Origin: Powellomyces hirtus
Taxonomy: Eukaryota; Chytridiomycota; Chytridiomycetes; Spizellomycetales; Powellomycetaceae
Assembly (NCBI GenBank): GCA_025526995.1
Contig: JAHLKG010000013.1
Span: 434,001-498,000, forward strand
DNA: 64,000 nucleotides
Direction: 5' to 3'
Part shown: positions 19,438 through 30,640 of the stretch, one piece after another
How positions within the stretch are numbered: the stretch's first letter is position 1
Layout of the letters: each line of letters begins with the position of its first letter
Position numbers and translations under genes: made by a program
Notes under the pieces: model-generated
Told to the model about the DNA's origin: nothing
Database searches by the model: none
The model's input: the letters and a program-made list of their open reading frames with translations, nothing else

Positions 19438-19480
19438 CAAGTGCGTTTGCATTTGAGATGCACAGTGCGCAAAATTGCTT
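19438..19480 (+). repeat. Left terminal inverted repeat of Tc1/mariner element
   Basis: 43 bp starting CAAGTGCGTTTGC directly after TA. It differs from the right repeat at three positions; each is A/T here and G/C there, in CpG contexts. Confidence 0.85.
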
Positions 19481-20748
19481 CAGATAATATTCACTCATTT
19501 GTATGACACTACCAGTGTTCCGGGACATTTCCAAAGGACCCAACGGCGCTGCTTGCGGGCAGCTCTTGTCTTCCAGCATTTCAACCAGATGTCGTCAGAC
19601 GAGACCTCCATCAAGCGTGAGCCTCAGGGCCATTGTTTTGATGACTTCGACTTGGAGGGCCACGATGGTCTTCATTGTGGATTGCCACCCTCCTCCCCTT
19701 TGGCCCACAATGCTTCAAGTGACCTTGACGACGACCGCACTCCCACACTGCTCCCGCCATCTTCCTCTTCTCGCAACGCCAACCACCGTCCGCTGCTGTC
19801 TGATGCCTGCCGCAATCAGATTGTAGGCATGTCTGTTGCAGGGCTAACCAAAGGCCAGATCGCAGCTAGGCTGGGAGTATCACAATCAACAATCAGCCGC
19901 ATTCTTCAGCGCTACAACAAAACTGGAGATGCAACTTCTTTAAAGAGACGTGGACGGAAACCCATCCTTCCAGCACCAGAAACTTTGGAAGCTGTCTATG
20001 AGGTGATCAAAGCCAACAGCCGTGGCAGCTTGGTTGAGTTTCAAGCTGCTCTGAGCGAAAAAGGCTTGAATTTCAGCCGTAGCAAGGTCTACAAGATCAT
20101 CAAACAACTCAGGATGGGCAACTATGCTGCTGCTTGCAAACCACTTCTTGATGATCGCAAAATGAAGCTCCGATTTGAATGGACAGCCATGCGACGACAC
20201 TGGCTTGCAGAGGATTGGCAGAATGTTATACATTCTGATGAGTCATACTTTACAGTGTTTGGGACTCGGAAAGAACGAGTATGGTGTGAGCAAGGAGACC
20301 AAGAAAAATACTTGCTAGAGAATGTCAAGAAGCGGGTCCAAGCCAATGGAGGTGGTCAAATGGTTTGGGGCTGCATTAGCTACCATGGCGTGGGACCCAT
20401 CTTCTTTCCGGATGGACGTATCGATGGCGAAAAATACGCAAAGATGTTGACAGAAGTCTACATTTCCTGGCTACAAATATTGGAAGAAACACATCCTGCA
20501 GAGGGATGGTCAGCGGGGATCAACCACACAGGTGAGACAAACTGCAGAAGCATGGAAGCAGATACGGCTGCTGAATACTTACTTTTTTCCAGGTTACATT
20601 CTTCAGGAAGATGGCGCATCTCCTCATACATGCAAGCACACGACAAAGTGGAAGACTGAAAACAATATTGCAGTCCTTCCAAACTGGCCCCCCAGCTCTC
20701 CGGACCTCAACATTATCGAAAAAGCTTGGGATATTCTTGATGCGAAGA

Positions 20749-20753
20749 TCCGT
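20749..20753 (+). other. 5-bp target-site duplication, left (TCCGT)
   Basis: TCCGT immediately before the left LTR is repeated at 28596-28600 immediately after the right LTR. Five base pairs is the usual staggered cut of Ty3/gypsy integrases. Confidence 0.9.
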
Positions 20754-21028
20754 TGTAATAATACTAGGTCCGTTGCCAGAGTCTAGTCTTCTATTCGGGA
20801 ATTCCCTATCTCTAATTCTACTGTTAGATCACTAAGTCTTGAATGCGTCCTCGTTGGAGCATTCCTTCTTTTCTTCTAGGCCGCGGAGCGGCCCTGGTCA
20901 CGTGATGGCCATCCATGGCCATCCCTGAGGTCTAGTACCCTTTGGGATGCTGACGCTAGCATCCATCTCACGCGGGGCCCTTCCCGACGCGTGTCTAGGC
21001 TTAGGCTGGTGAGCCACGCCTCATTACA
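20754..21028 (-). repeat. 3' LTR of the gypsy element (275 bp)
   Basis: 275 bp, TG...CA ends, seven substitutions from the 5' LTR (28321-28595). All seven are transitions and in every case this LTR has A or T where the other has G or C. Confidence 0.95.
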
Positions 21029-21036
21029 CCCCCCTT
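21029..21036 (-). other. Polypurine tract
   Basis: AAGGGGGG on the minus strand abuts the 3' LTR; it is the expected plus-strand DNA primer position. Confidence 0.75.
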
Positions 21037-21474
21037 AGATTCGCGACTATCTGTTAGGCTGGAATCTCTTCACGAGGCAAAGCTTGCCTAAGCCGGGCGG
21101 CGGTGGGTTAATGGATGCTGACGTGGTTGTGGGAAGATGAGGCTGGGGAGGCGACCCTAGCGCGGGTCGCGTCGCGGTAGTCTCCGACGGGTAGTCTCCG
21201 CCTTTCGTGGTGCGCGAAGTCGTCGGAAAGTCTATTTCTCTCTTCGTAGGGGCCCTAGATGAATCATGAGTAGCTTCCTCCATACGGATTTTGATAAGTA
21301 ACATCTGCTGCGCTCCGTAGGGGATGAAACACTAACACCTGAATTTCCGAGCGTTCCCAAGCAGGTCGAGCCTTTAAAAGGTACTGCCCGTTGGATCTCC
21401 CCCTCTCGCTCTTCTTTTCTTTGTAGCTTGACGAACTCACACCACACACACACACATACGCACACACACACACC

Positions 21475-22222
21475 ATGGCTGACACCCCCAACAACTCTCC
21501 ACCCCCCCCCGACACCACCACCACCACCATGGGCAAGCGCCGGCCCGCCCAACAACTCGCGAAAGGCGCAACCAAGCGGGCCCAGCCCGCCCGGGTGAGT
21601 AGGGGTCGGTGCTCGTCCTCGGCTGTGGCAACTCGTCTCATGTTCCCCGTCTTCTCTTGTTGTCTACAGGACCCCTCGGTCCATGAAAAGTCCACCCCCG
21701 AGAGGTCGGCCGATTTGCCCTCTTGCTGGAAGTGCAACCAATTCCGCAAGAGCAAGATGTTCACATCGGAATGCCACCATTTGGTGTGCCGGCCCTGCAT
21801 GGTGGCGGCGGCCGATGACACGGTATGTCCCCCCCCTTCGCTGAGAGGCGGCCTGATGTCTTCCTAACGGTGTGGTTCCTTCGTTCCTTTGCTTTCCAGA
21901 ACGACGGCCCTCAGGGCCAGTTGACGTGCGGCGCCCCCCACTGTGGCCGGGTTCTCTTCTTTGCGGCCATCCCCGCTGGGTGCCAGTTCGCTGGCTGCAA
22001 CCATGTCGGAGCGGACCTCCGCATGTTTCCATGCAACCATCTCCACTGCATGGGCCACGTCCGTGCGTAAGTAGTACTCTTCGACCTGCTGCTGTCTTAC
22101 CTGACTAACTCAGCTCTCTCCGCAGCGAGATGAACGTGGCAAATTACACCCCCCTCCGGTGCGGGTTGGGCGACCGGTGCCACGGCAACCAGTGCCAATT
22201 CTCCTTCACCAAGATTGGTTGA
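21475..22222 (+). CDS. Antisense four-exon gene for a double RING-like Cys/His protein inside the retrotransposon
   Basis: Exons 21475-21594, 21670-21822, 21900-22066 and 22126-22222 are joined by three canonical introns (75, 77 and 59 nt; donors GTGAGT, GTATGT, GTAAGT; acceptors CTACAG, TTCCAG, CCGCAG), giving an uninterrupted 178-residue protein. It runs opposite to gag-pol, between the chromodomain and the 3' LTR. Cluster 1: Cys59-x2-Cys62, Cys75-x-His77-x2-Cys80-x2-Cys83, Cys101-x4-Cys106, a RING-like C3HC4 spacing. Cluster 2 echoes it: Cys119-x4-Cys124, Cys136-x-His138-x2-Cys141-x2-His144, Cys159/165/170. The N-terminus is Thr/Pro-rich then basic. Zinc binding is inferred; E3 ligase activity would be speculation. 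It could be a captured host gene or an element accessory gene. Unlike gag-pol, it has no premature stop. Confidence 0.7.
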
Positions 22223-22489
22223 TTAGTTCTCCCCCCCCCTCCTTCTTGTACATACTTTCACTTGTTGCCTGTTGCTCCTTCAGGGCCTGGCCTTCGGCCC
22301 GTATAATCAAATTCAGTACCACAATCTTATCGCTGTACTTGCCTTCTCATCGCTGTGCTCCCTTGAGCCTTATAGCATTTCGTATGCGTCCGCCGTGTCC
22401 AATGTCACTCGGCTTCCTCCCGGCTATGGTGCTCATGGTAGATGCCCTGCATCACACTTCTCCGTTGGGAAGACCACCCAACGGTTCCC

Positions 22490-23235
22490 CGGCCATCGTC
22501 CAACAATGCCGGTATCTCACCTAGTGAGGTCTACTGCCTTGCAGTCTTCGGCCCATTGTCCAACGATTCCGGCATCTCACCCAGCGAGATATGCTGCCCA
22601 GCAGCCTTCGGCCATCGTCCAACAATGCCGGCATCTCACCTTGTGAGGTCTACTGCCTCGCAGTCTTCGGCTCATCGCCCAGCGATCCCGGCATCTTGCC
22701 CAGCGAGGTATGTCGCCCAGCGACCTTCGGCCCATCGTCAAACGATGCCGGTATCCTGGCCGAAGCCCTTCTCTTCTCTTTCGCGTGGGTATGTACTACG
22801 GACATGGTCCCCGCGGGTCTCGAGGTACGCTGCCATGCAAATCTGGTGCCGGTCACCTTGCATCGGCAGCCGGTTGATGCCCAGCATCACCCTTCTCACC
22901 CAGTGAGGTATGCCGCCCAGCGGCCTTCGGCCCATCGTCAAACAATGCCGGTATCTTGGCCGAAGCCCTTCTCTTCCCCTTCGCGTAGGTATGTACCACG
23001 GCCATGGTCACCGCGGGTCTCGAGGTACGCTGCCATGCAAATCTGGTGCCGGTCACCTTGCATCGGCAAGCCGTCGGCTCATCGCCCAGCGATCCCGGCA
23101 TCTCACCCAGTGAGGTATGCTGCCCAGCAGCCTTTGGCCATCGTCCAACAATGCCGGCATCTCGCCCAGCGAGGTATGCTGCCCAGCAGCCTTCGGCCAT
23201 CGTCCAACGATGCCGAGATCTCGCGCTATAATGTC
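22490..23235. repeat. About 60-bp minisatellite plus duplicated 130-bp block
   Basis: About nine units of roughly 60 bp (catcgtccaacaatgccgg..., cacccagtgaggtatgctgc...) lie downstream of the antisense gene and beyond the chromodomain end. They are interrupted twice by a near-identical block of about 130 bp (about 22740-22870 and 22940-23070) containing gaagcccttctcttc and tcgaggtacgctgccatgc. No coding function is apparent on either strand. Confidence 0.8.
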
Positions 23236-23285
23236 CTCTACCTCAAGTAGCATATCTCTTGTTAATTTACGGTACAGCTCGCTAT

Positions 23286-26200
23286 CTAGGTTCTCTTACG
23301 TCGCCTGGCTGCTAGCCTTTGGCCGCGGTCCTCTCCGGGGTGCTCCCGAAGCCATTCTTCCAGTGCGGTCGTCCCCTTCACGTGTGCATACAGCTCCCAC
23401 GTGTTCTGGGTGCTGTTGTAACCTGTCCACTTGACTAAGAACTGCTCGGTGTTCCTGTGCCATCTGGCGTTTAGGATCTTGTCCACTTGGTAGGTCTCCT
23501 AACCGTCTTCGTCCTTCTCGGGCTCAGGCGGAGCGGTGACCTGTCTGTACGGGGTACCGCCCGGGTCATGGTAACGTCTCAGAATGCTGACATGAAAGAC
23601 TGGGTGCAACCCGGTGAACTCCTTGGGTAGTTCGAGCTTGTAGGTGTCAGGATGCGGGCCCTTGCCGCGTACTGTGAATGGCCCAATCCATTGTTCAGCC
23701 AGCTTTTTGTTCCTTGTGGTGACGCTGGTAATCGCGATACCCTCACGGTGAAGTCAGACCTTGTCACCTTCTCGGTATGCTTCTGTGTGCTTCTTGCGGT
23801 CGTAGTACTTTGCCTGCTGGTCCTGTGCGTCTCGGAGCCATTGCTGCACGATGCAACTCACGTTGGCGAATTCCTTAATCCATCTCTCCACGGCGGTTTG
23901 TGCCGATTGCCTTATCATCTCCCCGGGGTTAGGTGCTACGCATTGGTTCGGTACCCGGGGAACGCGGCCTAGGTCAATCTCGAAAGGGGATAGTCCCGTC
24001 GACGTCTGCGGCGTTCGGTTGTAGTTGTACTCGAGGGTGGGGAGTAAGCTCTTCCAGTTGGAGCCGGCATAGTCAAGATAGGAGCCCATGATTCCCTTGA
24101 TTGTCTTGATGGCGTTCTCCGCCTTGCCATCGGTCTGTTGGTGTCGTGCCGACGAGAGTTCCTGTTTGACGTCGAGTGCCCGCATAAAGTACCGCCAGAA
24201 TTCTGATAGCCACTTGGGGTCCCGGTCGCTCACGATGGTGTGGGGCAACCCCGTGTGGCGAAATGCCTGTTCCAGAAAGAGTTGAGCCGTCTCCTGAGCT
24301 GTAGCGCGTGTGTTAGTAGGTAGAAGTATCACGCGGCATGAAAGGTAGTCAACAATGAGTAGTACGGCGTCCGTCGTCTTGGTCAGTCTCTTGCCGGTGT
24401 TGTGCGAAGGGTTCTTCGTCGCGTCGGGCTCTACCCGAGGTTCCCCCCCCTTAGAGCCTGACGTGGGGAAGAATATATCCATGCCGATTTGTTGCCAACG
24501 AGCGTCGGGGATCGGTAAGCTGCGGAGGAAACCGATTGGTGCGGCGCGCTTGTGACGTTGGCATGTAGGGCAAGTGCGGACATATTGGTACACATCACGT
24601 TCCATGTGAGGCCAATAGTACGACTCCAGAAGTTTGGCGAGCGTCCGTTGTACACCGGAGTGGCCGCCGTTCGTGAGGGAGTCATGATGGGTCTGAAGAA
24701 GTGGCCCCCGTAGACTGTCGGGGACGTACCGACGGTCGTGGTACATCAAGAATCGGTGCGGAGGGGAGTCCACTGTCCGGAATCGGCGCGCATGGCCGGA
24801 CAGGTTCTCCTGTGGACCGTCAAGGGTTAGGAGGATGTTTTGGCCAAAATCATCGGATGCGAGCGCTCAGGTCCAGTCCGCATCGGTCGGCATGTGCGTT
24901 GTTGCGGTTATTTCCGGTTGCACAATGGCGGTGACCACGTCAATCTTGGCCTGGCAGGTCGCACACTTGGGGGCGTAAGTCGGGTCGCAACTTAGGAAGT
25001 CGGCGATCGAGTTCCATGTGCCGGGGAGGTATTCCACTGAGAAATCGAACTGTTGGAGGAACTCGACCCAGCCCGCTTGGCAACGTGACAGGTGGGGTTG
25101 TTCCTGAAGGTAGATCAGGGATTTGTGGTCGACAAAAGCACGGAAGGGGCGGCCAATGAGGTAATGGCGGTTGGCGCGTATGGATTTGACCAGCCCCAGC
25201 AGTTCTTGTTCATGTACTGGGTATCGGGTTTCGGCTGGTTGCATCTTGCGGGAGTAGTATGTCACCGGGCGAAGTTGCGGAAGGTTAGCTTAGCCTGATT
25301 TGGTGGTAGGTAGTGGATGAGGGTATGGGAAATCCCCTGCGGCCGGCTGTGCCAGCCATCCACCGTAGGTGTAGCCCGATGCGTCGGTAAACAAGTAGGT
25401 GTCGAGCGCCGGGTCGAAATACGCTAGGGTAGGTGCCGAAGAGCATAATTCCTTTAAGTGGTTGAACGCCTGGTCCTCCTCGTCGCCCCATTGCCATGGG
25501 CGATTGCCGGATTGTAGGTTCGTTAACGGTAGGGTGATCTGTGCATACTCGGGGATGTATTCTTTGACGTAGTTGACGAGGCCCATAAAACTAAGGAGTT
25601 CCAGGGAGTTGGTCGGGCGAGGTTGTTCCCGGACCGCAGTCACCTTGGAGGGGGCGATACTCAGGCCATCCTTGCCAACTCGGTGGCCGCAGAACTCGAC
25701 TTCGTCAACCGCCCATTGACATTTGCTGGGTTTGACGTGGAGGCGATGTTCCGCCAAGGTCTTGAGGACCTTGTCGACGTGCTGAATGTGCGAACTCATG
25801 TCCGTGCTGAATATGAGGATATCGTCGAGGTATGAGATCACGTAGGCGTCGTACTTGTTGCCCAAGAGCTTGTTGGTTAGTTGCTGGAATGTAGCAGGTG
25901 CATTAGTTAAGCCGAAAGGTAGAACATTGTATTTGAAATGTCCAAAACGTGTTCGGAACGCTGTTTTCTCCCTATCTTCCGGTCGGATCATGATGCAGTG
26001 GTATGCGTCGCGGATGTCGATCGCGGTGAATACCCGCATGTTGACAAGCCTGTCGCGCAGCTCCAAGAGGTTCGGAAGTGGCGTGGCATCCTTGTGAGTC
26101 ATCTTGTTCAGTGCCCGGTAGTCAATGCAGCAGCGTAGGCCACCATCCTTCTTTGGGGCAAATAGGATGGGCGTGCCCCACGGACTGCGAGAGTGTGAGC

Positions 26201-28292
26201 TCCAACCCTTGTCCATTAAACGCTGCATCTGCTGGCCAAGCTCGTCCAGTTCGTCAGGGCTCAAATGCCGGAGTGGCTGCATCACGGGCTTTGAGCCGGG
26301 TTTGAGCCAAATGGTGAAATTGTCCTTGCCTCGGTCCGGAGGCATGCCTGACTGCTCGGTGAATAGCGTCGTGACGTATTTCTCTAGGGTCAGTCGGAGC
26401 GGATGGTCGGCTGCCAGCGCCTCTAGCGGGTCCTCTTGATCTGCCGCCTCGAATACTCCAGTGATCTTGCCCTTCTTCATCAAGCGTTTCCATTGCTTGG
26501 CCGTGTAGATTCCTTCTGCATTGAGTGCTGGCTTTGCCGGCTGGAATCTGCGGGGCCATACTTCTCGTGGGGAGAGTAGGCGGGCGGCGCACGCGGACGG
26601 TGCTTCCCAATGGCGGTTGGTCGATTTGGCTCGAAGGCTGAGGGTCTGGCCGTTGTGGTAGAACGTCATTGTTGGAAAGCCCTCTTGGTCAAAGAGCCCT
26701 CGGACGTCCAGCCCCAATATGAATGGCAAGCCCAGTTTGGCATCGACCCTGATCGGCGCGACCATGAATGGTACGGTATCCTCCCGGTAGGTGATCTTCT
26801 CCTCGGTGAACACCGAGAGGTCCCCGCAGGTCATCTTTGTTGCCCCGTAGTTTTCCACTCTGTCGCCCCACCGGACCTCCAGCGGAGTTGGAGAGGTGTA
26901 GGTCCGGAGGCCGTGTTTGGCGGCCCAAGTGTCGCTGATGATCAGGGTATTACATCCAGTATCGATTAGGATGCACAAATGTCTTCCTGTGAATGCGGGG
27001 TCCCGGTCTGTCCGTGGGGATCTTGTCTTGCATCCGGGGTTGGGGTACTGAGACGGTGCAAGCGTTCAGCACCCGGGGCGAAAATCCGAGCTGTTGACTG
27101 AGCCCCCGTCGCTGGCCGTCTCGTCTCCGGACCCTTCGGTGATCTCTACAGGGGCGGCGAACGTCCTATGCTCACCGGTTTTGCCTTTACTTGCTGGGCA
27201 CCCACGGGCGTAATGCCCTTTGCTCCCGCAATTGAAACATTTGTTGCGCTCACGGCGTTCGTTGTAGATGGTGTGCTCACGGCGTGAAATCCCTTGGTAG
27301 TTGTCCATACCGTGTGTGGGACGACCTGAGCCATAGGGGGTGTGGCGTCCCCTTTCTTGTGCTTGATAGTTCCCTCGATGTACCTGAGCCGGCTGGACTG
27401 CAGCGTACTGACGTCTCCTTCCGTCGGGGGTTACCCGCGCGACATCGTCCGCATAGCCTCGAATCCTGTAGCATAGTAGAGCTTCGTTCTGTAGCTCGGT
27501 GATCGGGATCTCGGCGCCATTATTCCTCATGATTGCGGCATAGCAGTGGTCCCGAATGCGCTGGCTGACATGGTTGGTCGAGAATCCGGTCAAGAAGTAG
27601 TCACGTTCTTGCCTTGGGGTAAGCCGCTCCTTGTCATTGAGCGTTGCGATCTGGGCCCAAAGGGTATTGAACTTGGCGATATACTCCGATATGCTATTAG
27701 TGAAAACCAGCCGCTTCATCTTTGCTTCTGCGGTGTTTTGTAAGTTGGCGGGGTAAAAGCGGATGCGGAGGATCCTCGTGAATTCCTCCAATGTCGAGGG
27801 CTGGTCGTCGGCATCCCTGAGCATCTGCCACCACTCATCGGCGGTCTCCTTGAGGTAGCCTGAGATGTGATCGACGTCCCGGTGGTCCGTCCTGAATGTG
27901 GTTGTCTCAAGGTAGCTTGTATGGACCTTCAAGAACTCATCGACCTTAGACACCATTTCCTCGCTGTTTCCTTTGCCGTCGAAGTGTGTCAGCTGCTTGC
28001 GAAGGTTCTTGCGGCGTTCCTTTTCGGCTTGCATTCGTGCTCGGTTTTCTTCCGCCAGGATGATGTCGACGTGCGGTGCTGCAGCTGCCGGTTGGACTGG
28101 AGTCGAAATCCTTGAAAGGAGAGTGGCGAAGCGTGCCTCTCCCATTGCGATCTGTTCCTGCAGTAGGCGTTGGGTCTCCGCCAGTTGTGCGGTCAACATT
28201 ATGACGGGGTTGTCGGTCGGTGTGTCGACTTCGGGTTCTCCTACTGCCGGGCTTTCTCCTGCCATTGGGCTGTTCCTGGTGCTACGTGCCAT
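23286..28292 (-). pseudogene. Chromovirus Gag-Pol polyprotein with five in-frame stops
   Basis: One frame runs 1,669 codons from ATG 28292 to TAG 23286, broken by TGA 27066, TAA 25290, TGA 24867, TGA 23754 and TAG 23499, with no frameshift. Gag has a capsid-like region (ETADEWWQML) and a CCHC knuckle CFNCGSKGHYARGC. Protease: LIDTGCNTL. RT: FTAIDIRDAYH and YLDDILIF. RNase H: TYYSRKMQPAETRYPVHEQE. Integrase: zinc site HHDSLTNGGHSG...CPTCQ, catalytic GMDIFF, VSDRDPKW and DGKAENAIK. The C-terminal chromodomain YQVDKILNARWHRNTEQFLV/KWTGY usually targets integration to modified chromatin. The stop after gag might be a natural readthrough site; the others interrupt conserved domains, so the copy is inactive. 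Confidence 0.93.
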
Positions 28293-28310
28293 TGTTGTCG
28301 TCTACGGGGT

Positions 28311-28320
28311 GGTGCTACCA
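28311..28320 (-). other. Primer-binding site of the gypsy element
   Basis: TGGTAGCACC on the minus strand directly follows the 5' LTR end (ATTATTACA). It is identical to the site at 1923-1932 and matches an initiator-Met tRNA 3' end. Confidence 0.8.
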
Positions 28321-28595
28321 TGTAATAATACTAGGTCCGTTGCCAGAGTCTAGTCTTCTATTCGGGAATTCCCTACCTCTAATTCTACTGTTAGATCACT
28401 AAGTCTTGAATGCGCCCTCGTCGGAGCATTCCTTCTTTTCTTCTGGGCCGCGGAGCGGCCCTGGTCACGTGATGGCCATCCGTGGCCATCCCTGAGGTCT
28501 AGTACCCTTCGGGATGCTGACGCTAGCATCCATCTCGCGCGGGGCCCTTCCCGACGCGTGTCTAGGCTTAGGCTGGTGAGCCACGCCTCATTACA
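28321..28595 (-). repeat. 5' LTR of the gypsy element (275 bp)
   Basis: Same length as the 3' LTR and 268/275 identical. It is followed by the TCCGT duplication at 28596-28600 and then by the transposase C-terminus. Confidence 0.95.
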
Positions 28596-28774
28596 TCCGT
28601 GCACGACGTCCGCTACCAACAGGGATTCCAGCATTGAGGACAGCGCTTGAAGAGGAATGGTACAAAATACCAGTTTCTGTCATCAGAGACCTCTACAGCC
28701 AGTGCGAGCATCGATGTGGAGTGATCTGGCAGGCTGGCGGAGGTCCTTCAAGGTTTTAGATGTTGGGTCTGGGA

Positions 28775-30640
28775 AGCGGTCCATAGTCAAAAAACCATCG
28801 AAAAAACGCGAAATGGAATAACTCTGTCAATACCCGTCCAATTGACGAAAGGAAGACAGTTCTGAACTCGCCAGGGCCTGTTCTACGATGTGGGAGCGGC
28901 GGAGGGGGATCTGGTGTGTTTGGGAAGCGAAATGCCTGCAGAGATGTCGTCCATAAGTCAAAAAACCGTCGAAAAAACGCGAAATGGAATAACTCTGTCA
29001 ATACCCGTCCAATTGACGAAAGGAAGACAGTTCTGAACTCGCCAGGGTCCGCTCTACGTTGGGGTAATGCGGCGCTGGTTCTGTGTCGGGTCTGGGAAGC
29101 GAAATGCGCACAGAGATGTTGTCCATAAGTCAAAAAACCGTCAAAAAAACGCGAAATGCAATAACTCTGTCAATACCCGTCCAATTGATGAAAGGAAGAC
29201 AGTTCTGAACTCGCCAGGGCCTGTTCTACGATGTGGGAGCGGCGGAGGGGGATCTGGTGTGTTTGGGAAGCGAAATGCCTGCAGAGATGTCGTCCATAAG
29301 TCAAAAAACCGTCGAAAAAACGCGAAATGGAATAACTCTGTCAATACCCGTCCAATTGACGAAAGGAAGACAGTTCTGAACTCGCCAGGGCCTGTTCTAC
29401 GATGTGGGAGCGGCGGAGGGGGATCTGGTGTGTTTGGGAAGCGAAATGCCTGCAGAGATGTCGTCCATAAGTCAAAAAACCGTCGAAAAAACGCGAAATG
29501 GAATAACTCTGTCAATACCCGTCCAATTGACGAAAGGAAAACAGTTATGAACTCGCCAGGGCCTGTTCTACGATGTGGGAACGGCGGAGGGGGATCTGGT
29601 GTGTTTGGGAAGCGAAATGCCTGCAGAGATGTCGTCCATAAGTCAAAAAACCGTCGAAAAAACGCGAAATGGAATAACTCTGTCAATACCCGTCCAATTG
29701 ACGAAAGGAAGACAGTTCTGAACTCGCCAGGGCCTGTTCTACGATGTGGGAGCGGCGGAGGGGGATCTGGTGTGTTTGGGAAGCGAAATGCCTGCAGAGA
29801 TGTCGTCCATAAGTCAAAAAACCGTCGAAAAAACGCGAAATGGAATAACTCTGTCAATACCCGTCCAATTGACGAAAGGAAAACAGTTATGAACTCGCCA
29901 GGGCCTGTTCTACGATGTGGGAACGGCGGAGGGGGATCTGGTGTGTTTGGGAAGCGAAATGCCTGCAGAGATGTCGTCCATAAGTCAAAAAACCGTCGAA
30001 AAAACGCGAAATGGAATAACTCTGTCAATACCCGTCCAATTGACGAAAGGAAGACAGTTCTGAACTCGCCAGGGCCTGTTCTACGATGTGGGAGCGGCGG
30101 AGGGGGATCTGGTGTGTTTGGGAAGCGAAATGCCTGCAGAGATGTCGTCCATAAGTCAAAAAACCGTCGAAAAAACGCGAAATGGAATAACTCTGTCAAT
30201 ACCCGTCCAATTGACGAAAGGAAAACAGTTATGAACTCGCCAGGGCCTGTTCTACGATGTGGGAACGGCGGAGGGGGATCTGGTGTGTTTGGGAAGCGAA
30301 ATGCCTCCAGAGATGTCGTCCATAAGTCAAAAAACCGTCGAAAAAACGCGAAATGGAATAACTCTGTCAATACCCGTCCAATTGACGAAAGGAAAACAGT
30401 TATGAACTCGCCAGGGCCTGTTCTACGATGTGGGAACGGCGGAGGGGGATCTGGTGTGTTTGGGAAGCGAAATGCCTGCAGAGATGTCGTCCATAAGTCA
30501 AAAAACCGTCGAAAAAACGCGAAATGGAATAAATCTGTCAATACCCGTTCAATTGACGAAAGGAAGACAGTTCTGAACTCGCCAGGGTCCGCTCTACATT
30601 GGGGTAATGCGGCGCTGGGTCTGTGTTGGGTCTGAGATGC
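28775..30640. repeat. 171-bp satellite array, 11 units
   Basis: Tandem 171-bp units (57 codons), aligned on ccata-agtcaaaaaaccgtc at 28781, 28951, 29123, 29294, 29465 and so on to about 30486. Two sequence classes occur, AGTTCTGAACTC with GGGAGCGG and AGTTATGAACTC with GGGAACGG, in the order A, A', A, A, B, A, B, A, B, B, A'', so part of the array has an AB higher-order unit. A' and A'' near the two ends share a diverged ggtccgctctac segment. It lies between the transposase stop and the right inverted repeat. Both strands are open for over 500 codons only because the unit is a multiple of three without stops. Confidence 0.95.

Follow-up and report, generated by a model that had tools for sequence, protein, structure and literature searches.

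The closest described counterparts of the gene reported here are the aORF-3R genes of plant Ty3 elements (Grande gene23, RIRE2, Retand and PvRetro13), which lie antisense in the interval between pol and the 3' LTR, occur in most copies and are conserved (sections 5-8 of PMC7264820; PMC11963269). For Grande gene23, a promoter lying upstream drives transcription and the protein is nuclear (sections 5-8 of PMC7264820; PMC11963269), and tandem repeats occupy this region in about half of the recently active Retand elements (PMC11963269). Sections 5-8 of PMC7264820 present the role of such accessory genes in LTR retrotransposons as still open. Among fungi, Boty is a Ty3 element with an additional antisense gene (section 5 of PMC7264820), and Zhao et al. 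(2011), a paper cited in PMC8365987, deals by its title with brtn of Boty-like elements in Botrytis cinerea. An antisense protein is also encoded by the retrovirus HTLV-1: HBZ represses sense transcription (PMC5237517), and reference titles in the same paper name spliced forms of it.

Here, a window of 64,000 nucleotides from the chytrid Powellomyces hirtus was analyzed, in which a chromodomain LTR retrotransposon carries an antisense gene that is an aORF-3R by position and orientation and is found in most copies. Position, antisense orientation, conservation and presence in most copies are as in the plant genes, and the tandem repeats of the window element lie at the same place as in Retand. 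Compared by description, the plant genes differ in their domains: TRP28 (Retand) and SMC (PvRetro13) are reported in PMC7264820 and PMC11963269, and no RING-type domain, whereas the window gene is predicted to be of RING type; the words 'intron' and 'RING' are absent from the main text of PMC11963269. The brtn gene is likened to the window gene, again by description, as an additional antisense gene of a fungal element. HBZ resembles it as an antisense protein gene of a retroelement that has spliced forms and acts on transcription, but HBZ is a bZIP protein with a TATA-less promoter in the 3' LTR, whereas the window gene has zinc-type clusters and a TATA-like spacer. The preliminary description knew of no fungal chromovirus with a RING-like gene of this kind. 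Plants and the fungal Boty provide known cases of antisense genes in this position, so such a gene in a fungal Ty3 element is not in itself new; a spliced antisense RING-type gene in an LTR retrotransposon was not found in a literature search of titles and abstract openings with thin coverage of subscription papers, which is weak evidence that none has been described.

Architecture of the element and its antisense gene

The window element is a chromovirus (Ty3/gypsy with chromodomain) with gag, RT/RNaseH, integrase and a C-terminal chromodomain between its LTRs, in this order by coordinates (Table 1). The LTR pair differs at seven positions over 275 nt; all seven are transitions, and in each the 3' LTR has the T or A. 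A pattern for the LTR-PPT junction has 101 occurrences in the genome at up to three mismatches, and the reversed-pattern control has none. The gag-pol of this copy contains five internal in-frame stops, the same number as first reported. Half of the ten listed relatives of the integrase come from Powellomyces hirtus, with 72-95% identity across 31-56% of the query, and no Rfam family reaches the gathering score between 20700 and 28700. The insertion interrupts a reading frame (19457-20753 and 28601 on) that is restored when the flanks are joined and that we take, from its sequence, to be a Tc1/mariner-like transposase gene. A 171-nt tandem array (28779-30587; 10.6 copies, 95% matches) lies just outside the element.

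On the strand opposite to gag-pol, in the interval between chromodomain and 3' LTR, four exons joined by three GT-AG introns (75, 77 and 59 nt) form a plus-strand gene at 21475-22222 of 178 codons followed by TGA, which agrees with the gene model of the preliminary description. The block of highest conservation in the spacer is located at 21311-21350 (diversity profile over 44 copies) and a TATA-like TTTAAAAG at 21373-21380, upstream of exon 1; together they suggest a candidate promoter of the antisense gene. Transcription antisense to gag-pol would thus probably start from a promoter of its own in the spacer adjoining the 3' LTR, and the transcript would be spliced three times. Antisense orientation shields introns from removal in retrotransposition: the sense genomic RNA would bear them as reverse complements, which the spliceosome would not recognize, so that retrotransposition would keep them.

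Table 1. Features of the window element and of its antisense gene, in window positions
Feature	Position	Strand	Basis
Ty3-type chromodomain LTR retrotransposon, 7842 bp	20754-28595	-	LTR pair, flanking TCCGT, Pfam gag/RT/RNaseH/integrase/chromo
Target site duplication TCCGT	20749-20753; second copy 28596-28600	.	Joined flanks give a single continuous frame
3' LTR, 275 nt	20754-21028	-	LTR pair alignment
Polypurine tract (PPT) adjoining 3' LTR	21029-21034	-	Sequence; LTR-PPT junction pattern
Spacer, probable antisense promoter	21035-21474	+	Sequence; diversity profile over 44 copies; promoter role inferred
Exon 1, codons 1-40: basic KRRPAQQLAKGATKR preceded by a Pro/Thr tract	21475-21594	+	Exon model, copy alignment
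Intron 1, 75 nt, GT-AG	21595-21669	+	Exon model, copy alignment
Exon 2, codons 41-91: ligands 1-6 of the RING-type cluster (C59 to C83)	21670-21822	+	Exon model, conservation, profiles
Intron 2, 77 nt in the window, 73-81 nt across 69 copies	21823-21899	+	Copy alignment
Exon 3: C101/C106, the closing RING pair, with the larger part of the second Cys/His cluster	21900-22066	+	Exon model, conservation
Intron 3, 59 nt; TAA ends unspliced reading	22067-22125	+	Exon model, copy alignment
Exon 4: C159, C165, C170, TGA end	22126-22222	+	Exon model, copy alignment
Tandem repeats, units of about 60 and 200 nt, between antisense gene and chromodomain	22490-23224	.	Repeat analysis
Chromodomain; in this copy, in-frame stops lie between it and the integrase	23289-23498	-	Pfam Chromo E=1.3e-12
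Integrase piece	23757-24866	-	Pfam Integrase_H2C2 E=4e-22; rve E=1.6e-6, below rve cut-off
Protease-like/RT/RNaseH piece	25293-27065	-	RVT_1 E=6e-35
Gag piece with zinc knuckle	27069-28289	-	Retrotrans_gag E=1e-9, zf-CCHC
5' LTR, 275 nt	28321-28595	-	LTR pair alignment

Predicted protein and proposed role

Both Cys/His clusters that had been pointed out in the 178-residue protein are present, the first as C59-x2-C62-x12-C75-x1-H77-x2-C80-x2-C83-x17-C101-x4-C106 and the second as C119-x4-C124-x11-C136-x1-H138-x2-C141-x2-H144-x14-C159-x5-C165. The eight ligands of the first cluster follow RING (C3HC4) spacing and each is kept in 60-63 of 63 copies; in a canonical RING the last pair is spaced x2, whereas it is x4 here. 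A Pfam scan of the window protein at E<=10 returned four RING families only, none of which reaches its curated cut-off (best PF00097, 15.4 against 21 bits), and the same RING family was matched by five of six copies at E<=1 (best E=0.0016). In a PDB profile search, whose best matches cover the first six ligands, all nine sequences obtained at E<=10 are Polycomb-type RINGs. PCGF5, the only one below 0.01 (E=0.0036), and RING2/RING1B provide the best matches; their likeness to the antisense protein is limited by low scores (20 bits at best), by its C-x4-C last pair and by its second cluster, which repeats the RING-like spacing but has no profile match. A RING-like first cluster is thus weakly supported, by profiles below the Pfam cut-off and by spacing, and the second may be RING-like by spacing alone.

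The predicted product is small and probably nuclear; it has a basic stretch near its N-terminus, a RING-type domain that would bind zinc and a second RING-like Cys/His cluster. The basic KRRPAQQLAKGATKR in exon 1 resembles a bipartite nuclear signal and is presumably NLS-like. Taken together, the locus is probably an accessory gene of a chytrid chromovirus that is transcribed antisense, spliced three times and translated into a small, probably nuclear RING-type protein acting for the element. Such a protein could be an E2-recruiting ubiquitin ligase or a scaffold on host chromatin or silencing factors, or it could regulate expression of the element itself. Most likely it would be an accessory regulator that acts in the nucleus through a RING-type surface; ubiquitin-ligase activity as such is a tentative proposal, which we hold somewhat more doubtful than not.

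Copies, reading frame and selection

The genome of the same fungus (29.3 Mb in 60 contigs) was searched for further copies, with 40 of 90 candidates scored in the DNA search, and the aligned set comprises 69 gene copies (L001-L030 and L061-L099). A 28-base exon 3 pattern allowing up to three mismatches hits 68 places in the genome, and its reversed control none. Among the 50 of 69 gene loci with long flanks, the LTR is found at 46, the spacer at 49 and the chromodomain region at 47, some of them partial, in the orientation seen in the window. Viewed from the integrase, at least 91 loci were used (111 of 482 candidates scored): the common version of the gene occupies the expected place at 61 of 91 and a diverged version at 11 more. 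No gene match was found at the other 19, which include one distant family, at least one locus near a contig end and several fragments, and eight of the 69 gene loci have no listed integrase in place. Two of the 19 loci, elements on one contig (C1:126044 and C1:133802, spanning C1:126044-136997), have 96% identical integrases in the same orientation, 7758 bp apart, with the LTR-PPT junction present. No gene match was found in either, and the distance from integrase to PPT is 2061 against about 2730 nt. Since these two elements have the junction and no detected gene, a copy can evidently exist without the gene, which is therefore not a strict requirement.

The exon frame is intact in 45 of the 69 copies, so the gene is indeed present in other copies, as the preliminary description had proposed to check. 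All three GT-AG introns are kept in 35 of these and one splice site is changed in the remaining ten; over all copies, GT-AG borders are found in 190 of 207 introns. Intron lengths all fall between 57 and 81 nt; therefore no copy has lost an intron. Among the 35 fully GT-AG copies, intron 2 measures 74 (10 copies), 75 (14), 76 (3), 77 (6) or 81 nt (2) with the exons in frame, and thus an unspliced reading shifts frame while the exons do not. Reading through introns 1 and 2 is blocked in 28 of the 45 intact copies; a coding role of these introns was rejected, both being open in only 17 of 45 and the diversity of intron 1 being 0.094/0.135/0.094 by frame position. Decay of the gene in other copies, which had been named in advance as evidence against it, is seen in 24 of 69, of which 11 have only a length change in the first 19 codons and three only a lost stop, with ten otherwise damaged. 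A stop in exon 2 is common to L095 and L096, both among the oldest copies. A poly-C tract in exon 1 (21475-21531) differs in length from copy to copy and is by itself responsible for 11 of the 24 broken frames; this variation may be assembly error or slippage. Because other copies have open frames of up to 1340 aa around the integrase, the better condition of the antisense gene relative to gag-pol in the window copy reflects local decay.

Selection was estimated over 63 copies, leaving out the rearranged L074, L088 and L096-L099 as well as the first 19 codons. Purifying selection, expected if the gene is functional, is evident from a dN/dS of 0.29 over 1953 pairs, with 0.30 for the 990 intact pairs and 0.19 against L095 (62 pairs), the pairs in all three sets not being independent. 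Between L001 and L095, 42.5 of 108 synonymous and 34.5 of 363 nonsynonymous sites differ (Fisher p=1.3e-11), and the introns, with 37 differences in 170, are likewise separated from nonsynonymous sites (p=1.8e-4). For the closer pairs L001-L084 and L001-L030, synonymous and nonsynonymous sites differ (p=6e-4 and 5e-5) and introns are not separated from nonsynonymous sites (p=1). Diversity by codon position is 0.058/0.036/0.094 for the gene, and 0.032/0.020/0.072 in 36 copies at 23502-23728; by this measure the antisense gene is conserved like other proteins of the element. In all four exons variability is highest at third codon positions, though in exon 4 by a narrow margin. As for the Cys/His residues, 14 of 23 columns are identical in 63 of 63 copies and the others in 58-62, with no sign of the loss of conservation that had been considered. 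A chance open reading frame was rejected on codon constraint, dN/dS (0.29) and the real-frame pN/pS (0.24). Since selection keeps the antisense gene in many copies, it probably helps or regulates the element.

A second version, exchange and alternative explanations

Searches with the exon 3 peptides of the window gene and of L095, with 92 of 92 candidates scored for each, show two modes of identity to the window gene, with 69 loci at 78-100% (the common version, A) and 17 at 43-49% (version B). Besides the two modes, the C16 and C38 loci stand at 54%, and C22:420 and C12 are weaker; the matches to the window peptide contain no stops. At the 17 B loci, among them C29:118.5-119.4 kb and C10:566.7-567.7 kb, exon 2 lies upstream with 43-53% identity to L095 and no stops, intron 2 measures 74-76 nt judging from the match ends, and the LTR-PPT junction is present in all 17, 722-844 nt from exon 3. 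The preliminary description had considered recent capture of the gene. This was rejected, because the second version, so deeply diverged in exon 3, sits at the same place in 17 elements of the same family.

Five full-length integrases of B elements are 92, 91, 91, 91 and 84% identical to that of the window, and partial ones 81-90%. Among 34 A elements with a full-length integrase (35 rows, as one integrase is paired with both L061 and L096), the integrase ranges from 89 to 96% and gene exons 2-3 from 88.8 to 99.1%; exons 2-3 of the truncated A copy L074 stand at 82%, and two further A elements on C32 have partial integrase matches down to 79-83%. Because gene and backbone are not in step, exchange between elements explains these values better than steady change, and the antisense gene seems to have been exchanged. 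A Mantel test on 31 common copies agrees with this in part: LTR+spacer, gene and 3' flank are intercorrelated (r 0.26-0.57, p<=0.003), the two halves of the chromodomain region correlate with each other (0.40), and with these halves there is no correlation for LTR+spacer and 3' flank (r -0.18 to 0.10) and a weak one for the gene (0.17, p=0.044; 0.23, p=0.014).

These data bear on the possibility that the protein restrains its own family, through copy-number control or superinfection exclusion, with the two versions as different specificities. Genes with only 43-49% identity in exon 3 accompany integrases of which four of the five full-length ones, at 91-92%, fall within the A range; statistical linkage to the chromodomain region is absent for LTR+spacer and 3' flank and only weak for the gene; and HBZ of HTLV-1 is described as suppressing sense transcription (PMC5237517). 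Template switching, however, yields exchange without self-recognition, and we regard self-limitation as unlikely. Marginally less likely is an interchangeable specificity cassette, in which recombination between otherwise similar retroelements exchanges diverged versions and the version carried determines the siblings or host silencing factors that are recognized; if this is true, the retrotransposon would contain an allelic locus of the self/non-self or arms-race kind. For the preferred reading, an accessory gene acting for the element, function is testable because there is a recognizable domain type, three introns, about 70 near copies and a second version on similar backbones; splicing, ubiquitin-ligase activity, partners and A/B specificity are all open to experiment.

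Outside these loci, a search of 5.8 billion proteins, in which relatives must share short words with the query, returned a single homolog, P0002. It is named the 'oncoid' of 'Powellomyces chytrid fungus MELD virus 1' (TPA) and comes from a 21,205-bp contig, with 141 identities to the antisense protein in 197 aligned columns, 50 of them gaps. The reading as a gene of a midsize DNA virus, which either entered the retroelement or owes its annotation to it, draws on the name and contig of this sole relative. P0002 belongs to the same gene family as the antisense gene, but it is annotated unspliced and assigned to a DNA virus, and it equals the antisense gene read through introns 1 and 2 and ended at intron 3. 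LxCxE is one short motif expected of a MELD virus oncoid, and it is absent from both P0001 and P0002. Viral contigs contain no confirmed relative of the antisense gene, PHROGs gave no match, and a search with PF03175 (PolB) had zero matches, its control being equally silent. With the gene copies sitting in LTR elements, a viral origin is improbable, and at least one 'oncoid' of the reported fungal MELD virus may instead be a retroelement gene.

Gene-like matches to exons 2 and 3 occur at C16:602228-602615, C38:58966-59347, C12:329829-330219 and C22:419914-420231, and an exon 2 match containing a stop at C8:1066922-1067047. No RT or integrase lies near these five loci among the scored matches (150 of 192 and 150 of 219 candidates), and they are possible host relatives or old remnants. 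As host relatives they would fit a passenger gene captured by the element without function, an explanation that purifying selection and the existence of two old versions make slightly more improbable still than the viral one. Least probable of all is an antisense RNA as the selected product, acting as dsRNA or by promoter interference with an incidental reading frame: retroelement antisense transcripts can act as RNA (section 8 of PMC7264820), but constraint on this gene follows codons in all four exons, comparison with the diverged copy L095 across exons 2-3 gives a pN/pS of 0.24 for the real frame versus 1.08 and 1.64 for the shifted frames, and the Cys/His columns are nearly invariant.
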